Below, piece by piece: positions 9,812 to 16,648 of a DNA stretch of 35,761 nt. Source of the stretch: Candidatus Dormiibacterota bacterium. GTDB lineage: Bacteria; Chloroflexota; Dormibacteria; Dormibacterales; Dormibacteraceae. Under the pieces are notes generated by a model. It was not told the origin of the DNA and made no database searches. It saw only the letters and a list, made by a program, of their open reading frames with translations. Location: NCBI GenBank assembly GCA_003151935.1, contig PLYZ01000082.1, positions 222 through 35,982 on the forward strand, given 5' to 3'. The translations under genes and the position numbers were made by a program. Numbering within the stretch: the stretch's first letter is position 1; each line of letters opens with the position of its first letter.

Positions 9812-10579
9812 TTAGACCGTGATTCTCTTAAAAGACTCCGCGTAGCGGAAGCCGCCCTTCTTCCCCACCTCGCGGTGCCGCTTGCGCATGAACTTCTCGA
9901 AGTCCCACTCGCGACCAGGCTTGGCAACCTGGCTCTTGTGCTTGCGGAGCGCCGCGATCTTCTGGTCGAGCGTCGAGCTGATATCGACGAGGTGGTCGCC
10001 CGAGGTCCAGAAGGGGATCCAGACCTCCTTCACCTCGTGCGGCTGCAGCCCTTCTTTGAGCAGGCTTCGAAACGCGCGCGGATTTCGCGAGTCGGGGTAG
10101 ACGGCCGCCATGGTGGCCTCGCCGACCGCCAGGTGATCCGGGTGCGACCCGCCCATCGGCGCATCCAGCACGCGCCCGGGGAGGTGGGTGATCACGAGCT
10201 CGGGCTTGTACTTGCGGATCATCCGCACGATGTCGTGGCGCAGCTTGAGGTCAGGCGAAAGGTGTCCGTCCTTGTAGCCCAGAAACTCGACCTTCTTGAC
10301 TCCCAGAACGCGCGCGGCCGCTTTCTGCTCCTTTTCGCGAATCGCGATCAGCTCGGAGTCCTTTTGGTTGGGGTCCTCCCCACCCTGCGAGCCGTCGGTG
10401 ACGATCGCGTAAGTCACGCGCGCGCCGTCCCTGGCCAGCTTGGCGATCGTGCCGCCAGCGCCGAAGTCCGGGTCGTCCGGGTGCGCGGACACGACAAGCA
10501 CGCTCTTGAACTTCGGTGAGTGGGAGTTGCTGGAACTGGTCGTCGCGGGCCTCTTCGTCGCTTTCCTGGTGGTCGCCAT
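9812..10579 (-). CDS. PIG-L (LmbE-like) family deacetylase
   Basis: This 255-aa zinc-dependent N-deacetylase-fold protein is of the LmbE/MshB group, acting on GlcNAc-like or related amides. The metal motif is VVSAHPDDPDFGAGG (HPDD) near residue 33, and the second ligand is GSHPDHLAVGEA (SHPDH). Other landmarks are AIVTDGSQGGEDPN and the KKVEFLGYKDG strand. The start is the ATG at 10579 (MATTRKATKR); the open frame continues upstream but through a repeat and opposing coding. A basic Ser/Thr-rich N-terminal tail of about 25 residues precedes the domain. Mycothiol or bacillithiol pathway genes are not nearby, so the substrate is not assigned. Confidence 0.9.
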   Translation of the reverse strand: MATTRKATKRPATTSSSNSHSPKFKSVLVVSAHPDDPDFGAGGTIAKLARDGARVTYAIVTDGSQGGEDPNQKDSELIAIREKEQKAAARVLGVKKVEFLGYKDGHLSPDLKLRHDIVRMIRKYKPELVITHLPGRVLDAPMGGSHPDHLAVGEATMAAVYPDSRNPRAFRSLLKEGLQPHEVKEVWIPFWTSGDHLVDISSTLDQKIAALRKHKSQVAKPGREWDFEKFMRKRHREVGKKGGFRYAESFKRITV

Positions 10580-10719: not shown

Positions 10720-12561
10720 CTAGCGCCTGACCCTGGCCGGCGCGACCAGCGATGCGAGCGGGATCGCCGCCTGTATCGGCTTCCAAAGCGCCTCCAGCTG
10801 CTCCGCCGTGAGCCGGGAGCGCGACGCGATCACCCGGCCGCCGAACGCCGCCGTCTTCACCGCCGCCCACCCCCCGTTCCCGGCCATCCGCATCGGAACC
10901 GTCACGACGGCTGACAGCGCGGCGGCCTCCTCGGCCGGCCTGGCGGCGCCGTCGATGGTCGCCTTCGACAGCGCGTTGGCGGCTTGTTCGTCGACCTCCC
11001 ACTGCCGGGCCAGCACCGTGCACTGGCTCGCACCGAGGCGACCCACGGCCGTGATGTACCGCGAAACCATGGCCCCGAGCGCTCGTGGATTGGTGACCGG
11101 GATCGCGGACGCGAATGGCGCATAAGAGGCGGCGAACTTGATCGGGGTCAGGTGGTGGCGGCGAACCAGCGCCGACACCGCGTGCCACGCCGCCACCGCC
11201 TCGTCATCCGACCGGCCGCCGAAGAAGTCGACCAGCGCGTCGCCCGCAGTGACCAGCGGCGCGACCGCCTCCTCGTTGGCCGCGGGAGCGGCCGCCGCGA
11301 TCCTCTTCCAGTCGTGCTTGTGCAGCGACGCCAGCCGCCGTGCGAAGCCGCTTTCGTTCGCCTCGTCGAGCGGGATCGAATGGGCGAAGGGCGCGTACAT
11401 CTGCGTCGCCTGCTCGTCAGTCATTCGACCGTGCGGCTCGATTGCGTAGCCTGCACGCTCGACGGCGGCGAAAGCGCGGCAGCGCGTGAATGTGTCGAGC
11501 TCTCGAGTCCCCTCGATGGTGGCCAGGATCGACCGCACCACGCCGGCGGGCTCGTCGCTGCTGTCGCGGGCGACGCTGGCCACCAGCGTGCGGCGGTCCA
11601 GCACGCGAAGCCACTGGATCGGCGTCAGGTCAGTGACCGCCTTGATGAAGATCGCCACCTCGGCGCTGTTGGCTCCATAAGGGGTGGCGGCCTTCGCCGG
11701 GACCGCCGCCGGGAGGCGCTTCCTCGGCGCTTTGATCGTGCGGATCGCGCTGCTCACCGCGGCCTTAACCCTCTCCGCGGCGGGTTGGTTTTCGTCTTCC
11801 GCGAGGGAGCCGAAAGGAATCACGGCTTCCAGGGGCGCCCAGAGTGTGGCGACCTCTTGGGGCGACAGGTCCGAGACGCATCCGAGCACGCGCCCGCCGT
11901 GGACTGCCGTGCGGACCGCGGCCCAGCCCGAGTCGCCGGTGACGTGGGCGGGGATCACTGTGAGGGCGGCCATCGCAACCGCCTCCTCACTCTTGACCTC
12001 AGGGTGATTGGCCACCGACTGGAGCAGGGCGCGGGAGGCGGCCGGCTCGACGCGCCACCTCCGGGCCAGGCCCTCGCACTGCGCGGCGGAGATGCCCTCG
12101 AGCTCGGCCATGAAGCGCCGCGTCAGCGGGTCGAGCACGTCCGAGCCGGACACGGGGATCAGCGCCGAGAACGGCGCGTAGTGGGCGGCGAACTTCAGAG
12201 CCGAGAGCTGGTGCCGCGTCACCAGGGCCGACATCGCCTGCCAGGCCGCGACCTGCTTCTCCTCGCTCTTCCTCGCGAGCGAATCGAACAGGATCTCGCC
12301 CGCTTTGGACATCGGCTCGGACATCCGCCCGTCGCTGCTCCGGATCGCGGTCTGGATCGAGCGCGAAGACTCGCCTGCGCCCTCTTTGGTCACCGAAGCC
12401 ACCAGGCGCCGTGCCGCGAGGACCTGGCGCCACTGCCAGGGGGTGAGCTGGGCGACCGCGTTGATGAACGCCTCCACCTCGGCGGTGTTCAGGCCGAAAC
12501 GCCGCGACGCGTCATCGTTGGCGCGCTGAATCCGGCCGAGCAGCCCATGCGAAGCCCCCAT
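10720..12561 (-). CDS. unrecognised 613-aa protein with internal tandem duplication
   Basis: I do not recognise this family. The protein consists of two related halves (about 27-256 and 300-606). AEVEAFINAVAQLTPWQW matches AEVAIFIKAVTDLTPIQW. AMSALVTRHQLSALKFAAHY matches AVSALVRRHHLTPIKFAASY. GWAAVRTAVHGGRV matches GWAAVKTAAFGGRV. A motif of the form aromatic-A/K-P-hydrophobic-xxx-I-P occurs five times, at Y128, W241, Y389, Y480 and W593, so a smaller helical unit underlies both halves. The first half lacks about 70 residues that the second half has near 355-425. It is alanine-rich with no signal peptide, membrane span or catalytic motif seen, so a soluble helical-repeat scaffold is plausible. 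It lies 40 nt downstream of pyruvate kinase with no terminator between, and may be the tail of that operon. Confidence 0.85.
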   Translation of the reverse strand: MGASHGLLGRIQRANDDASRRFGLNTAEVEAFINAVAQLTPWQWRQVLAARRLVASVTKEGAGESSRSIQTAIRSSDGRMSEPMSKAGEILFDSLARKSEEKQVAAWQAMSALVTRHQLSALKFAAHYAPFSALIPVSGSDVLDPLTRRFMAELEGISAAQCEGLARRWRVEPAASRALLQSVANHPEVKSEEAVAMAALTVIPAHVTGDSGWAAVRTAVHGGRVLGCVSDLSPQEVATLWAPLEAVIPFGSLAEDENQPAAERVKAAVSSAIRTIKAPRKRLPAAVPAKAATPYGANSAEVAIFIKAVTDLTPIQWLRVLDRRTLVASVARDSSDEPAGVVRSILATIEGTRELDTFTRCRAFAAVERAGYAIEPHGRMTDEQATQMYAPFAHSIPLDEANESGFARRLASLHKHDWKRIAAAAPAANEEAVAPLVTAGDALVDFFGGRSDDEAVAAWHAVSALVRRHHLTPIKFAASYAPFASAIPVTNPRALGAMVSRYITAVGRLGASQCTVLARQWEVDEQAANALSKATIDGAARPAEEAAALSAVVTVPMRMAGNGGWAAVKTAAFGGRVIASRSRLTAEQLEALWKPIQAAIPLASLVAPARVRR

Positions 12562-12601
12562 GTCCTCAATTTTGGCGGGGCGAGGGCCCTTTAAGGCCCG
12601 C

Positions 12602-14056
12602 TTAGACAGTCTCGACCTTGAGCAGGTTGGTCTGGCCGGCCAGGCCGACCGGCACGCCGGCCACGACCACCACGGTGTCGCCCGCCCGGACCAGGCCGCT
12701 CAGCCGCACGGCCTCGGTGGCGTTCGCGACCATCTGGTCGGTGTCCTTGCCCGGGCTGACCAGGAGCGGGATGACCCCCGAGTACAGCGCGGTCTTGCGG
12801 AGGACCTCCGGGTGTGGGCTGGCGGCCACCACCGGCACGCGGGGCCTTGCCTTGCTGCACCGAAGCGCGGTCGTCCCGGACTCTGTGAAGGCGATGATCA
12901 CCCGCGCGCCGAGCTCGTCCGCCACGGCCGCCGCGGCATGGGCGATCGCGCTTCCGACCTGGCCCGGCTCGCGCCAGGGCTGCCGAGCGCGCTCGAAGGT
13001 CGGATGGCGCTGCGCCGAGAGGCAGATCCTCGCCATCGCGCGCACCGCCTCGACCGGGTGCGCCCCCACCGAGGTCTCCTGCGAGAGCATGACCGCGTCG
13101 GTCCCGTCCCAGATGGCGTTGGCCACGTCGGACGCTTCAGCGCGAGTCGGGCGGTTCGAGGTGACCATCGACTCGAGCATCTCCGTGGCCGTGATGACCG
13201 GGACGCCCGCGCGGTTCGCGCGGTCGATCACATCCTTCTGCACCGCGGGAAGATCGCCCAGCTTAAGCTCCACGCCCAGGTCGCCACGGGCCACCATCAC
13301 GGCGTCCGCGACCTCGAGGATCTTGCTCAGGTTGCGGATCGCCTCCAGCTTTTCGAGCTTGGCGATCACCGGCGTCTTGCAGGCAAGCTCGCGGAGGTGC
13401 TTCTGGCACAAGAGAATGTCGTCCGGACGCCGGACGAACGACAGGGCGACGTAGTCCACCTGGAGCTCGACCGCCAGCTTCAGGTCCTCGAGGTCTTTTT
13501 CGGTCAGCGCCGGCATCGGCAGCGGGCGGCCGGGCACGCTGACACCCTTGCGTTCGCCCAGCAAGCCTCCCCGTATCACGGAGCATTCGGCTTGACCGCC
13601 GTCGACGCTACGCACCACCAGCTCGATGCGGCCGTCGTCCAGCAACACGTGGTCGCCGCGCTGGAGCGCCTCGACGAGCTCAGGGTGGCTGATCTCGATG
13701 TGATTGTCTGCCTGAGCCGCGCCCTGGATCGAATGTGCATCTTGCGAGCGCCTGGTCCGAGATTCGCCGGTCAGGATCACCATGCGCCCGCGCACGAGGC
13801 GCTGGAAAGCGGCCTCGAGCGGACCGGTGCGGATCTTCGGGCCCTGCAGGTCGCCCAGCAAGGCGATGGGCCGGCCCGCGGCCTCGGCCGCCTCACGCAC
13901 GTCGGCGGCGACCTGGCGGTGCGTCGCATGGTCCCCGTGGGAGAAGTTCATGCGGGCGACGTCCATGCCGGCCTGGATCATCGTGCGCAGGATCGCCGGC
14001 GAAGCGCTCGCGGGCCCAATGGTGCAGACGATTCGCGTGCGGCGGACCTGTGTCAC
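12602..14056 (-). CDS. pyk: pyruvate kinase
   Basis: This 484-aa glycolytic enzyme converts phosphoenolpyruvate and ADP to pyruvate and ATP. Motifs in order: TRIVCTIGPAS; MDVARMNFSHG; LLGDLQGPKIRTGP; the B domain with LLDDGRIEL; VIAKLEKLEAI (catalytic Lys); DAVMVARGDLGVEL (metal Glu/Asp); and TATEMLESMVTSNRPTRAE. The usual LSGET is LSQETSVG here. The C-terminal domain has IIAFTESGTTA and ends GQTNLLKVETV. The start is GTG at 14056, overlapping the NYN gene stop as GTGA. The frame is open far upstream, but that part is antisense-like and not kinase. Its place at the end of an ispDF-cysS-rlmB operon is unusual. Confidence 0.96.
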   Translation of the reverse strand: MTQVRRTRIVCTIGPASASPAILRTMIQAGMDVARMNFSHGDHATHRQVAADVREAAEAAGRPIALLGDLQGPKIRTGPLEAAFQRLVRGRMVILTGESRTRRSQDAHSIQGAAQADNHIEISHPELVEALQRGDHVLLDDGRIELVVRSVDGGQAECSVIRGGLLGERKGVSVPGRPLPMPALTEKDLEDLKLAVELQVDYVALSFVRRPDDILLCQKHLRELACKTPVIAKLEKLEAIRNLSKILEVADAVMVARGDLGVELKLGDLPAVQKDVIDRANRAGVPVITATEMLESMVTSNRPTRAEASDVANAIWDGTDAVMLSQETSVGAHPVEAVRAMARICLSAQRHPTFERARQPWREPGQVGSAIAHAAAAVADELGARVIIAFTESGTTALRCSKARPRVPVVAASPHPEVLRKTALYSGVIPLLVSPGKDTDQMVANATEAVRLSGLVRAGDTVVVVAGVPVGLAGQTNLLKVETV

Positions 14057-14492: not shown

Positions 14493-15830
14493 CTAAAAGC
14501 GCATGTTTGACTGGCCGAAACTGATGAGCCGCGGGTCGATGCCGAAGAGGCCAGTGATCTGCAGCACGGACTGGAAGAAGGCATGGCTGACGGGCGCGAC
14601 GAACCACAAAACAGCGAACACGGCGAGGATGCCGATCTGCCCGTATTGATTCGCCAGGCCCTGCACGGAGTGGGGCAGCCAGGGCCGGATGATGCCGAAC
14701 CCGTCGAGCCCGGGCACCGGCAGCAGGTTCAAAACGAATGCGATGGCTTCGATGAATCCCAGGAATGCCAGCGCCCCGAAGAAGCCGGCGTTCGTCGGGT
14801 TGAGCCACCCGGCGTTGCCTGGAATCAGAAACGGAGCTGCGACGAGCAGGCCGCAGAGCATGGTGCCCACGGGACCGGCAACCGACACCGCCGAGTCCCA
14901 GCCGCGGCTCCGGAGCGCGCCGCGATCGATGTAGACCGCTCCTCCCGGAAGCCCGATCCCCCCGAACAGCAGGAAGAGCACCGGCATGACGAGGCTCAGC
15001 AAGATGTTGGTGTACCGGAGCGGGTTCAGGTCCAGGTAGCCGGAGGCTCGCACGCTGCGGTCGCCACCGAGGTAGGCCACCAGCGCGTGACCGAACTCGT
15101 GCACGCAGACCGACGTGATCCACCCGGCGGTGACGAAGAGGATGGTCAGCCCTCCGACGAAAGCGGGAAGGATCCCAAACCAGAGCATCGCCCCAGATGC
15201 GGCCGTCGCCGCGACAAGGCCCAGGAACACCGGGCTGACCTGGATCACCCCGCGCATCGACGGCAGGGGCTTCTTGCGCAGGGCGGCATCGGGCCGGGAC
15301 CTGGGGGCCGAAGCCGTCTGGTTCGACCTGGCCGGCTGCGGCTGGGACCGGTTGCCCTGCAGCCGGTCGGACTCCCCGGGCTGGAAGTCCACCTTGGTCC
15401 CGGCCTGAAGGTGGCGGCGGAGGTCGTAGAGCGTCAGGCCGGCAGCCTGGAGCGGCGCGGACGTTTCGCGCGAGTCGCTGTAGAGCATCGTGAGGAGTAG
15501 GTGGATCGAGTCCACCTGGTAGTGGCCCAGCACCTGGGCCTCGCGGTTGGCATTCACCAGCAGCTGGCGGATCGGGAGCGGCTGGGCGCCGGAATCGCCG
15601 GGCGGAGGCAGCTGCGACATGATCGACGAAGGGTCGATGCCAAGCGCGCGGATCGCCTCGTCGGCCAGGCTGCCGCGGCTCGACAGGATCGCCTGCAGCA
15701 CGTCGGTCGGGCTCCCGCTGGCCCCGCGCGCCTTGGCCGACGCGGCGGCACGCTCGAGGATCTCGCGGGCCGAGCGTGTCAGCGGTATGTCCGCGGCGGC
15801 GTGCTCCAGCTCTAAGGTGGCGTCAGGCAT
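14493..15830 (-). CDS. Clp N-domain / site-2 protease (M50) fusion membrane protein
   Basis: This 445-aa protein joins two modules. Residues about 16-75 (PLTRSAREILERAAASAKAR) and 86-142 (PIRQLLVNANREAQVLGHYQ, then HLLLTMLYSDS) match the two Clp repeats at the N-terminus of ClpC, as in the clpC of this window. A Pro/Gln/Ser-rich linker (145-190) follows. The rest is a polytopic site-2 protease with HEFGH (244-248) as zinc and catalytic site and NLLPVPGLDG (368-377) as the third ligand motif. It therefore looks catalytically complete, cutting within membranes. No AAA+ module is present. The ATG at 15830 is 11 nt after rlmB. A regulatory intramembrane protease guided by a Clp-type recognition domain is an inference. 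Confidence 0.88.
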   Translation of the reverse strand: MPDATLELEHAAADIPLTRSAREILERAAASAKARGASGSPTDVLQAILSSRGSLADEAIRALGIDPSSIMSQLPPPGDSGAQPLPIRQLLVNANREAQVLGHYQVDSIHLLLTMLYSDSRETSAPLQAAGLTLYDLRRHLQAGTKVDFQPGESDRLQGNRSQPQPARSNQTASAPRSRPDAALRKKPLPSMRGVIQVSPVFLGLVAATAASGAMLWFGILPAFVGGLTILFVTAGWITSVCVHEFGHALVAYLGGDRSVRASGYLDLNPLRYTNILLSLVMPVLFLLFGGIGLPGGAVYIDRGALRSRGWDSAVSVAGPVGTMLCGLLVAAPFLIPGNAGWLNPTNAGFFGALAFLGFIEAIAFVLNLLPVPGLDGFGIIRPWLPHSVQGLANQYGQIGILAVFAVLWFVAPVSHAFFQSVLQITGLFGIDPRLISFGQSNMRF

Positions 15831-15841
15831 AACGAACCAGT

Positions 15842-16648
15842 CTAGGAACGGCCAATGGTCCGCTGTCTTTCGACCTCGTACAGCAGGGCAGCCGCCGCGG
15901 CCGACGCGTTGAGACTCGCGATGTGGCCTTTCACCGGCAGGCGCACCCGCGCGTCGCACCGCTCCTTGACCAGCCGGTGCACGCCTTCCCCCTCGCTGCC
16001 GACCACGATGCAGACCCGCTGGGTGAAGTCGAATTCCCACGCGTACATCTCGCCTCGCGGGTCGAGAGCCACGCACCAGATGCCCGACCGCTTGACCTCC
16101 GCGACCGCGGACGGCATGCCCGACACCATCGAGATGCGGAGCAGCTCGCTTGCGCCGGAGCTCGCCTTGACCGCCGCCGGTGACAGAGGCGCGCTGCGGT
16201 GCTCGGGGATGATCGCACCGTCGGCGCCGGCGACCTCGGCGCTCCGGAGGATGGCCCCGAGGTTCTGCGGGTCCATGATCGAATCGAGCGCGACCAGCAA
16301 CGACGGATCGGAAGCAAGCAGCTCCTTCAACGGCCACTCCTTGCGAGGCTTGAGCTCCGCGGCCACGCCCTGGTGCACGCCCGGGGCGATCACATCGAGG
16401 CGCTCGGCCGGGACCACCTCGACCCGTGCCAGGCGCGCCAGCTCGTCCAGGCGCGGATCATGACCCAGGCCGGCGGCCTGGTAGACCCTGACCACCCGCC
16501 CGGCGCGCGCCGCCTCGAGCACAGCGTTGCGTCCGTGGATGAGCGCAGTCGCCGCCGCCAGGACGTCTCGCGCGCCGTCATTTGCACCGCGGCGCGCGGT
16601 GACGTTCCCCCCCGGACGGTTTTGGCCGCGAGGGATCCGGCGCTTCAT
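15842..16648 (-). CDS. rlmB: 23S rRNA 2'-O-methyltransferase, TrmH/SpoU family
   Basis: This 268-aa SPOUT methyltransferase probably methylates the ribose of a 23S rRNA guanosine (G2251 in E. coli for RlmB). LIHGRNAVLEA starts the N-terminal substrate-binding domain. SPOUT motif 1 is LDSIMDPQNLGAILRSAEVAG, given here as LDSIMDPQNLGA plus ILRSAEVAG. Motif 2 is CIVVGSEGEGVHRLV and motif 3 is LPVKGHIASLNASAAAA, which forms the knot. I prefer the ATG at 16648, which overlaps the cysS stop as ATGA, over a GTG at 16663. A basic tail (KRRIPRGQNRPGG) precedes the domain. Gene order cysS-rlmB-yacP supports the name. Confidence 0.93.
   Translation of the reverse strand: MKRRIPRGQNRPGGNVTARRGANDGARDVLAAATALIHGRNAVLEAARAGRVVRVYQAAGLGHDPRLDELARLARVEVVPAERLDVIAPGVHQGVAAELKPRKEWPLKELLASDPSLLVALDSIMDPQNLGAILRSAEVAGADGAIIPEHRSAPLSPAAVKASSGASELLRISMVSGMPSAVAEVKRSGIWCVALDPRGEMYAWEFDFTQRVCIVVGSEGEGVHRLVKERCDARVRLPVKGHIASLNASAAAAALLYEVERQRTIGRS

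Follow-up and report, generated by a model that had tools for sequence, protein, structure and literature searches.

A five-module helical protein encoded beside pyruvate kinase in Dormibacteraceae, and a likely uncatalogued domain family

TPR and HEAT proteins are helical tandem-repeat (alpha-solenoid) scaffolds, whose units are helix pairs of 34-50 amino acids. A first-pass annotation of a contig from Candidatus Dormiibacterota (Dormibacteraceae), made from the letters alone, described a 613-aa protein that appeared to have grown by nested duplication of a helix-pair module. Here we analysed this five-module protein, which we call REP5, within the 35,761 nucleotides of contig PLYZ01000082.1 that we refer to as the window. 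The earlier observation as a whole was confirmed, and its interpretation was supported in part. The reading frame lies exactly where it had been placed and was found to be on the minus strand.

10720..12561, minus strand: REP5 gene, stop codon included, 613 aa

The GC content at codon positions 1/2/3 (69/54/89%), together with a dN/dS of ~0.14-0.30 against six orthologues, indicates that this frame is a genuine gene, and the orthologue comparison shows it to be under purifying selection. An ORF on the plus strand (10984-12594) was taken to be the shadow of the minus-strand gene.

The two halves of REP5 can be aligned along their length, the first being shorter, as had been noticed before; their Smith-Waterman score of 406 lies far above that of 500 shuffles (mean 43, sd 7.3, maximum 81), and 76 gap columns fall in the first half. 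The motif [FYW]xP[LIVMF]xxxIP occurs at precisely the five residues that had been listed (128, 241, 389, 480 and 593), against a mean of 0.00085 and a maximum of 1 in 20,000 shuffles, a statistic that is descriptive because the pattern and its controls were written with the five sites already in view. The units said to alternate with this motif were likewise recovered, starting at residues 39, 157, 312, 413 and 509. BLASTP of REP5 against itself returned the full-length self match only at both settings used, and did not show the repeat. An AF2 model of the second half, computed from an alignment of both halves of 14 orthologues, reached a mean pLDDT of 79.8 and a pTM of 0.72 and consists of helices only, about five per module; the model of full-length REP5 was poor (pLDDT 50). 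The units that alternate prove to be the two ends, N-terminal and C-terminal, of a single module, so the proposed helix-pair unit was abandoned: the repeating unit is one module of 92-120 aa with roughly five predicted helices. REP5 is shown to consist of one domain in five diverged copies, which form a first block (M1a-M3a) and a second (M1b-M2b-M3b), and nested duplication, that is, a doubled block with modules inside each block, is borne out by the alignment of the halves and by profile comparisons between modules. The module borders were placed by eye on A1, an alignment of 27 orthologues with 47-91% identity.

12151..12510, minus strand: module M1a, residues 18-137, the module closest to the single-module relatives
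11812..12150, minus strand: module M3a, residues 138-250
11692..11811, minus strand: variable inter-block linker, residues 251-290, mean pairwise identity 0.40 in 27 orthologues
11371..11691, minus strand: module M1b, residues 291-397
11095..11370, minus strand: module M2b, residues 398-489
10756..11094, minus strand: module M3b, residues 490-602

In hhalign, whose E-values here are those of single comparisons between low-diversity alignments, the modules matched strongly between blocks (M1a-M1b 8e-23, M1a-M2b 1e-24, M3a-M3b 4e-32) and also across module types, in register and over most of the module (M1b-M3b 1.5e-4, M3a-M1b 2.4e-4, M1b-M2b 5e-4). Each of these three cross-type pairs beat its reversed control and 40 column-shuffled controls. 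The pairs M1a-M3a, M1a-M3b, M2b-M3b and M3a-M2b were weak (E 0.01-0.03), M2b-M3b being aligned over 25 columns only (E 0.015), and one of the 40 M1a-M3a shuffles outscored the real pair (20.6 vs 19.7). Such weakness would fit a rival explanation in which M1 and M3 are two helical domains unrelated to each other, copied together in a block duplication, their likeness reflecting helix periodicity and a YxPF-like ending. We regard this as very unlikely, given that M1b-M3b scored 29.2 and M3a-M1b 28.1 against shuffle maxima of 15.7 and 20.2, with nearly the whole module in register. A profile of ten distant two-module and DnaJ-type modules, built without any REP5 sequence, also matched REP5 at E 4.6e-7 and, in hhalign, matched M1a (4e-9), M1b (7e-7) and M3a (1.3e-5) alike, though its matches to M2b (0.005) and M3b (0.11) were weaker and unconvincing alone. 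We keep to the single repeated domain, with M1, M2 and M3 appearing weakly alike and mostly in register; across 15 module sequences only F, W, A, F, P and F are invariant.

The difference in length between the blocks maps to a single segment.

11272..11505, minus strand: segment without counterpart in the first block, residues ~353-430, comprising the C-half of M1b and the N-half of M2b; 76 gap columns

When modules of the same protein are compared, the M1a N-half is similar to the M1b N-half (42% identity, z 14.9) and the M1a C-half to the M2b C-half (47% identity, z 18.0), and the pairings M1a_N-M2b_N (z 2.3) and M1a_C-M1b_C (z 1.5) are near chance. Because M1a follows M1b in its N-half and M2b in its C-half, the extra ~76 residues correspond to one module's worth, in register. 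The single-module relatives introduced below match M1a over its full length (hhalign E 6e-14), M1b in the N-half alone (4e-8) and M2b in the C-half alone (2e-4); judged from these alignments, M1a is the most ancestor-like module. Conservation within the modules is also lowest in the extra segment (0.50 and 0.46 vs 0.74 and 0.78 in the flanks). The first-pass annotation had attributed a difference of about 70 residues to a deletion in the first block. The difference itself was reproduced. Since the single-module relatives match the whole of M1a and the extra segment is so poorly conserved, the evidence inclines towards the second block having gained residues, which may account for the ~76. The deletion of a weakly constrained segment from the first block would look much the same.

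By reading of the search matches, REP5 is present in 31 of the 42 genomes of the window's family (f1). The search itself placed 45 of 101 genomes over threshold, the matches in family f3 being short proteins; a weak match in G018 (L051), an antisense-like ORF frame without the module signature, was dropped. The five-module plan is kept in all 27 aligned orthologues, and three internal deletions leave it unchanged. Those in the second block remove about 35 residues in L025 (L039/L025) and 24 in L023, and L016, L023 and L026 have shorter linkers. Orthologues with other repeat numbers, which the earlier reading had suggested looking for, are absent among these 27, and forms with one or two modules do occur among paralogues and relatives.

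Single-module proteins of ~170 aa are encoded in family f3 of the same class (L045, L047, L048, L050, L052 and L053). They share with M1a the signature FGPNT...LTPxxW...ALVxR...YxPF and, as noted, match it over the full module, but where REP5 has five modules they have a single one, interrupted in its middle by an insertion of ~40 residues. In 30 f1 genomes their profile matches REP5 in its N-terminal region (5e-8 to 8e-4); at the one locus examined, the gene lies by nuo genes and not by pyk, and the genomes with these single-module proteins gave no pyk match. A two-module paralogue was found in 32 f1 genomes, the window's own genome included (L077), from a search that put 33 of 101 genomes over threshold and in which the G007 match is a different, single-module protein. 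The two-module proteins have the same order of module halves as REP5, which the A5 profile matches at 1e-6 to 6e-4, but they comprise ~265 aa with two modules and are encoded behind glpX rather than pyk.

Searches beyond these families drew on two samples of the phylum, of 251 and 400 genomes, for which their results speak. The A1 profile matched in 13 of the 251, and the module-level profile A6 revealed further forms in 29 of the 400, six of them outside the class, including paired acidic two-module genes, a DnaJ fusion and short proteins. In the fusion (L127:2546-4006), the module stands behind the DnaJ domain, with a hydrophobic stretch and a long tail rich in Pro and Thr following it. The acidic two-module proteins are encoded by adjacent gene pairs (L124, L125 and L126), which by eye adjoin aspartokinase and threonine-synthesis-like genes. 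The window's own genome encodes a third module-bearing protein (L123:587-1975, G000:C17; 462 aa) with one central module (E 1e-8) and, in its C-terminal part, a weak S-Me-THD_N match below the cut-off. There may be a resemblance to actinobacterial hypothetical proteins that end in a VVRD...LYGPW motif. On these profile matches REP5 appears to belong to an FGPN-type module family that is also seen outside REP5, and the domain is likely to be an uncatalogued family whose other forms in this phylum have one module, two modules or a fusion to DnaJ.

The earlier statement that no known family carries this signature holds for the libraries tried. In Pfam, no family matched REP5 at E<=10, TPR, HEAT and other repeats included, and 27 orthologues gave scattered single-member matches alone (E 0.02-0.06). 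Against PDB sequences, phmmer gave no match at E<=10 and hmmsearch with A1 none at E<=1, and no strong match to a known non-repeat family emerged from either Pfam or PDB. NCBIfam, PHROGs and PADLOC yielded sub-threshold noise only for REP5, and all five resources returned nothing meaningful for its one-module, two-module and DnaJ-fused relatives either. We treated as noise a match of one single-module relative to phrog_8332 (E 0.0019, unknown function) and two pyruvate kinase chains retrieved with the two-module profile (E 0.43 and 0.45). Nine IMG/VR stretches matched a pattern, none coding for a relative, and plasmids gave no match with three queries. We found no paper on this protein in a literature search of a kind that cannot show it to be unpublished, and none on Dormibacterota pyruvate kinase or on helical-repeat proteins in pyruvate kinase operons.

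With the model of the second half, none of 127 Foldseek matches reached E<=0.001, and the best VIA Z was 4.5, within a range described by the tool as common among helical bundles; nothing rose above the stated background, a result that does not exclude families absent from the lists. The structure rows for M3b that stand above the rest are prenyl synthases and a transporter (Z 4.5), which might be read as pointing to an enzyme or enzyme subunit, its modules holding a catalytic or cofactor site and its array being a fused homo-oligomer. Several polar residues invariant in the 27 orthologues would suit such a role (R116, E192, E193, D210, H221, R224, R468, E544 and E545 among them). However, A, L, W, F, P and G make up most of the invariant positions, no invariant His/Asp/Cys set is common to all modules, and a Z of 4.5 is unremarkable for helical bundles by the tool's own account, so that we give the enzyme explanation little credence.

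The genes on either side of REP5 encode recognizable enzymes.

12602..14011, minus strand: pyruvate kinase (pyk), upstream neighbour, start as translated; PF00224, E 4e-96
9812..10561, minus strand: PIG-L/LmbE-type deacetylase, downstream neighbour, start as translated; PF02585, E 1e-33

Between pyk and REP5 lie 43 bp of non-coding sequence plus the stop. Further upstream of pyk, one minus-strand frame of the window (14493-16337) has Clp_N and peptidase M50 matches. Adjacency to pyk was counted in the 26 of 30 REP5 loci with at least 800 bp of upstream sequence: pyk lies directly upstream on the same strand in 25 of these 26 (at 36-175 bp, once 470 bp), and in the remaining one (G008) a further ORF intervenes and pyk lies 2 kb upstream. 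The deacetylase gene follows REP5 in all 29 loci with downstream sequence. The gene order pyk - REP5 - PIG-L/LmbE is shown to be conserved across the loci read, which are not independent because gene order is inherited within one clade. REP5 is dispensable, since 11 of the 42 f1 genomes lack it and one of them (G030) keeps pyk and the deacetylase gene as an adjacent pair. Among nine pyk loci in REP5-less f1 genomes, the deacetylase gene is next to pyk in three and a histidine-kinase ORF follows pyk in six. In L097-L102 this small histidine kinase sits between pyk and the deacetylase gene, with HisKA and HATPase_c recognized by Pfam in L099. The pyk-deacetylase pair is the older arrangement, and the slot after pyk may merely tolerate genes, given that the histidine-kinase ORF takes it in six of the nine loci. 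A pyk search at E<=1e-3 gave no match in nine of 18 genomes, some of them of family f3 (G013, G022, G042, G043, G044, G045, G050, G051 and G053); these may use another enzyme for the pyruvate kinase step.

The two-module paralogue has a neighbour of its own. In all 11 distinct genes fetched, glpX lies directly upstream, the identity of GlpX being supported by Pfam, and no module was seen in the glpX neighbourhoods of genomes without the two-module gene. At the conserved start there is no in-frame ATG, GTG or TTG, and a CTG overlaps the glpX stop (CTGA) in all ten distinct genes whose junction was read (~2286-2289 in L077, G000:C47). A CTG start with translational coupling to glpX is possible from this arrangement.

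These neighbourhoods suggest, tentatively and somewhat short of an even chance, a cytoplasmic all-helical tandem-domain protein that acts as a scaffold or regulator and is made together with pyruvate kinase, as its paralogue is with GlpX. Each module would be a small helical bundle, and the five would form an elongated array serving as a protein-binding scaffold or regulator, produced in step with pyruvate kinase; the two-module paralogue would be produced in step with the class II fructose-1,6-bisphosphatase GlpX, and the array might hold or tune one of these enzymes, which exert opposed control over glycolysis/gluconeogenesis. The link of REP5 and its paralogue to these enzymes comes from gene order alone, and the scaffold or regulator is favoured because two paralogues each follow a control enzyme of one pathway, the two enzymes being opposed, and because of the apparent CTGA overlap with glpX. 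Equally likely is a five-module helical protein without any tie to pyruvate kinase or GlpX, such as a lineage-specific adaptor, a chaperone-like helper or a nucleic-acid binder in well-expressed operons. Relatives near nuo genes, or by eye between aspartokinase and threonine-synthesis-like genes, are consistent with this, as are the DnaJ fusion, the pI of 9.3 with a basic linker, and the adjacency of pyk and the deacetylase gene with or without REP5. It accounts less readily for two paralogues that stand independently behind opposed control enzymes of the same pathway, in 25/26 (pyk) and 11/11 (glpX) loci, one of them apparently in translational overlap with its neighbour. A more ambitious version of the scaffold or regulator, in which a new helical domain family supplies dedicated subunits or regulators, five modules with pyruvate kinase and two with GlpX, and so sets the direction of carbon flow, we consider improbable. 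If the gene-order link does reflect binding, it would mean that this soil lineage, which is abundant and largely uncultured, has an unrecognised way of controlling its central carbon flow.

A probably uncatalogued helical domain that is found singly, in pairs, fivefold and as a DnaJ fusion inside a single phylum offers a natural series for studying tandem-domain growth. REP5 resembles the TPR and HEAT scaffolds in its tandem helical units, in the lack of a catalytic signature and in a likely binding surface. It differs from them in its unit, which at 92-120 aa and about five predicted helices is far larger than their helix pairs.
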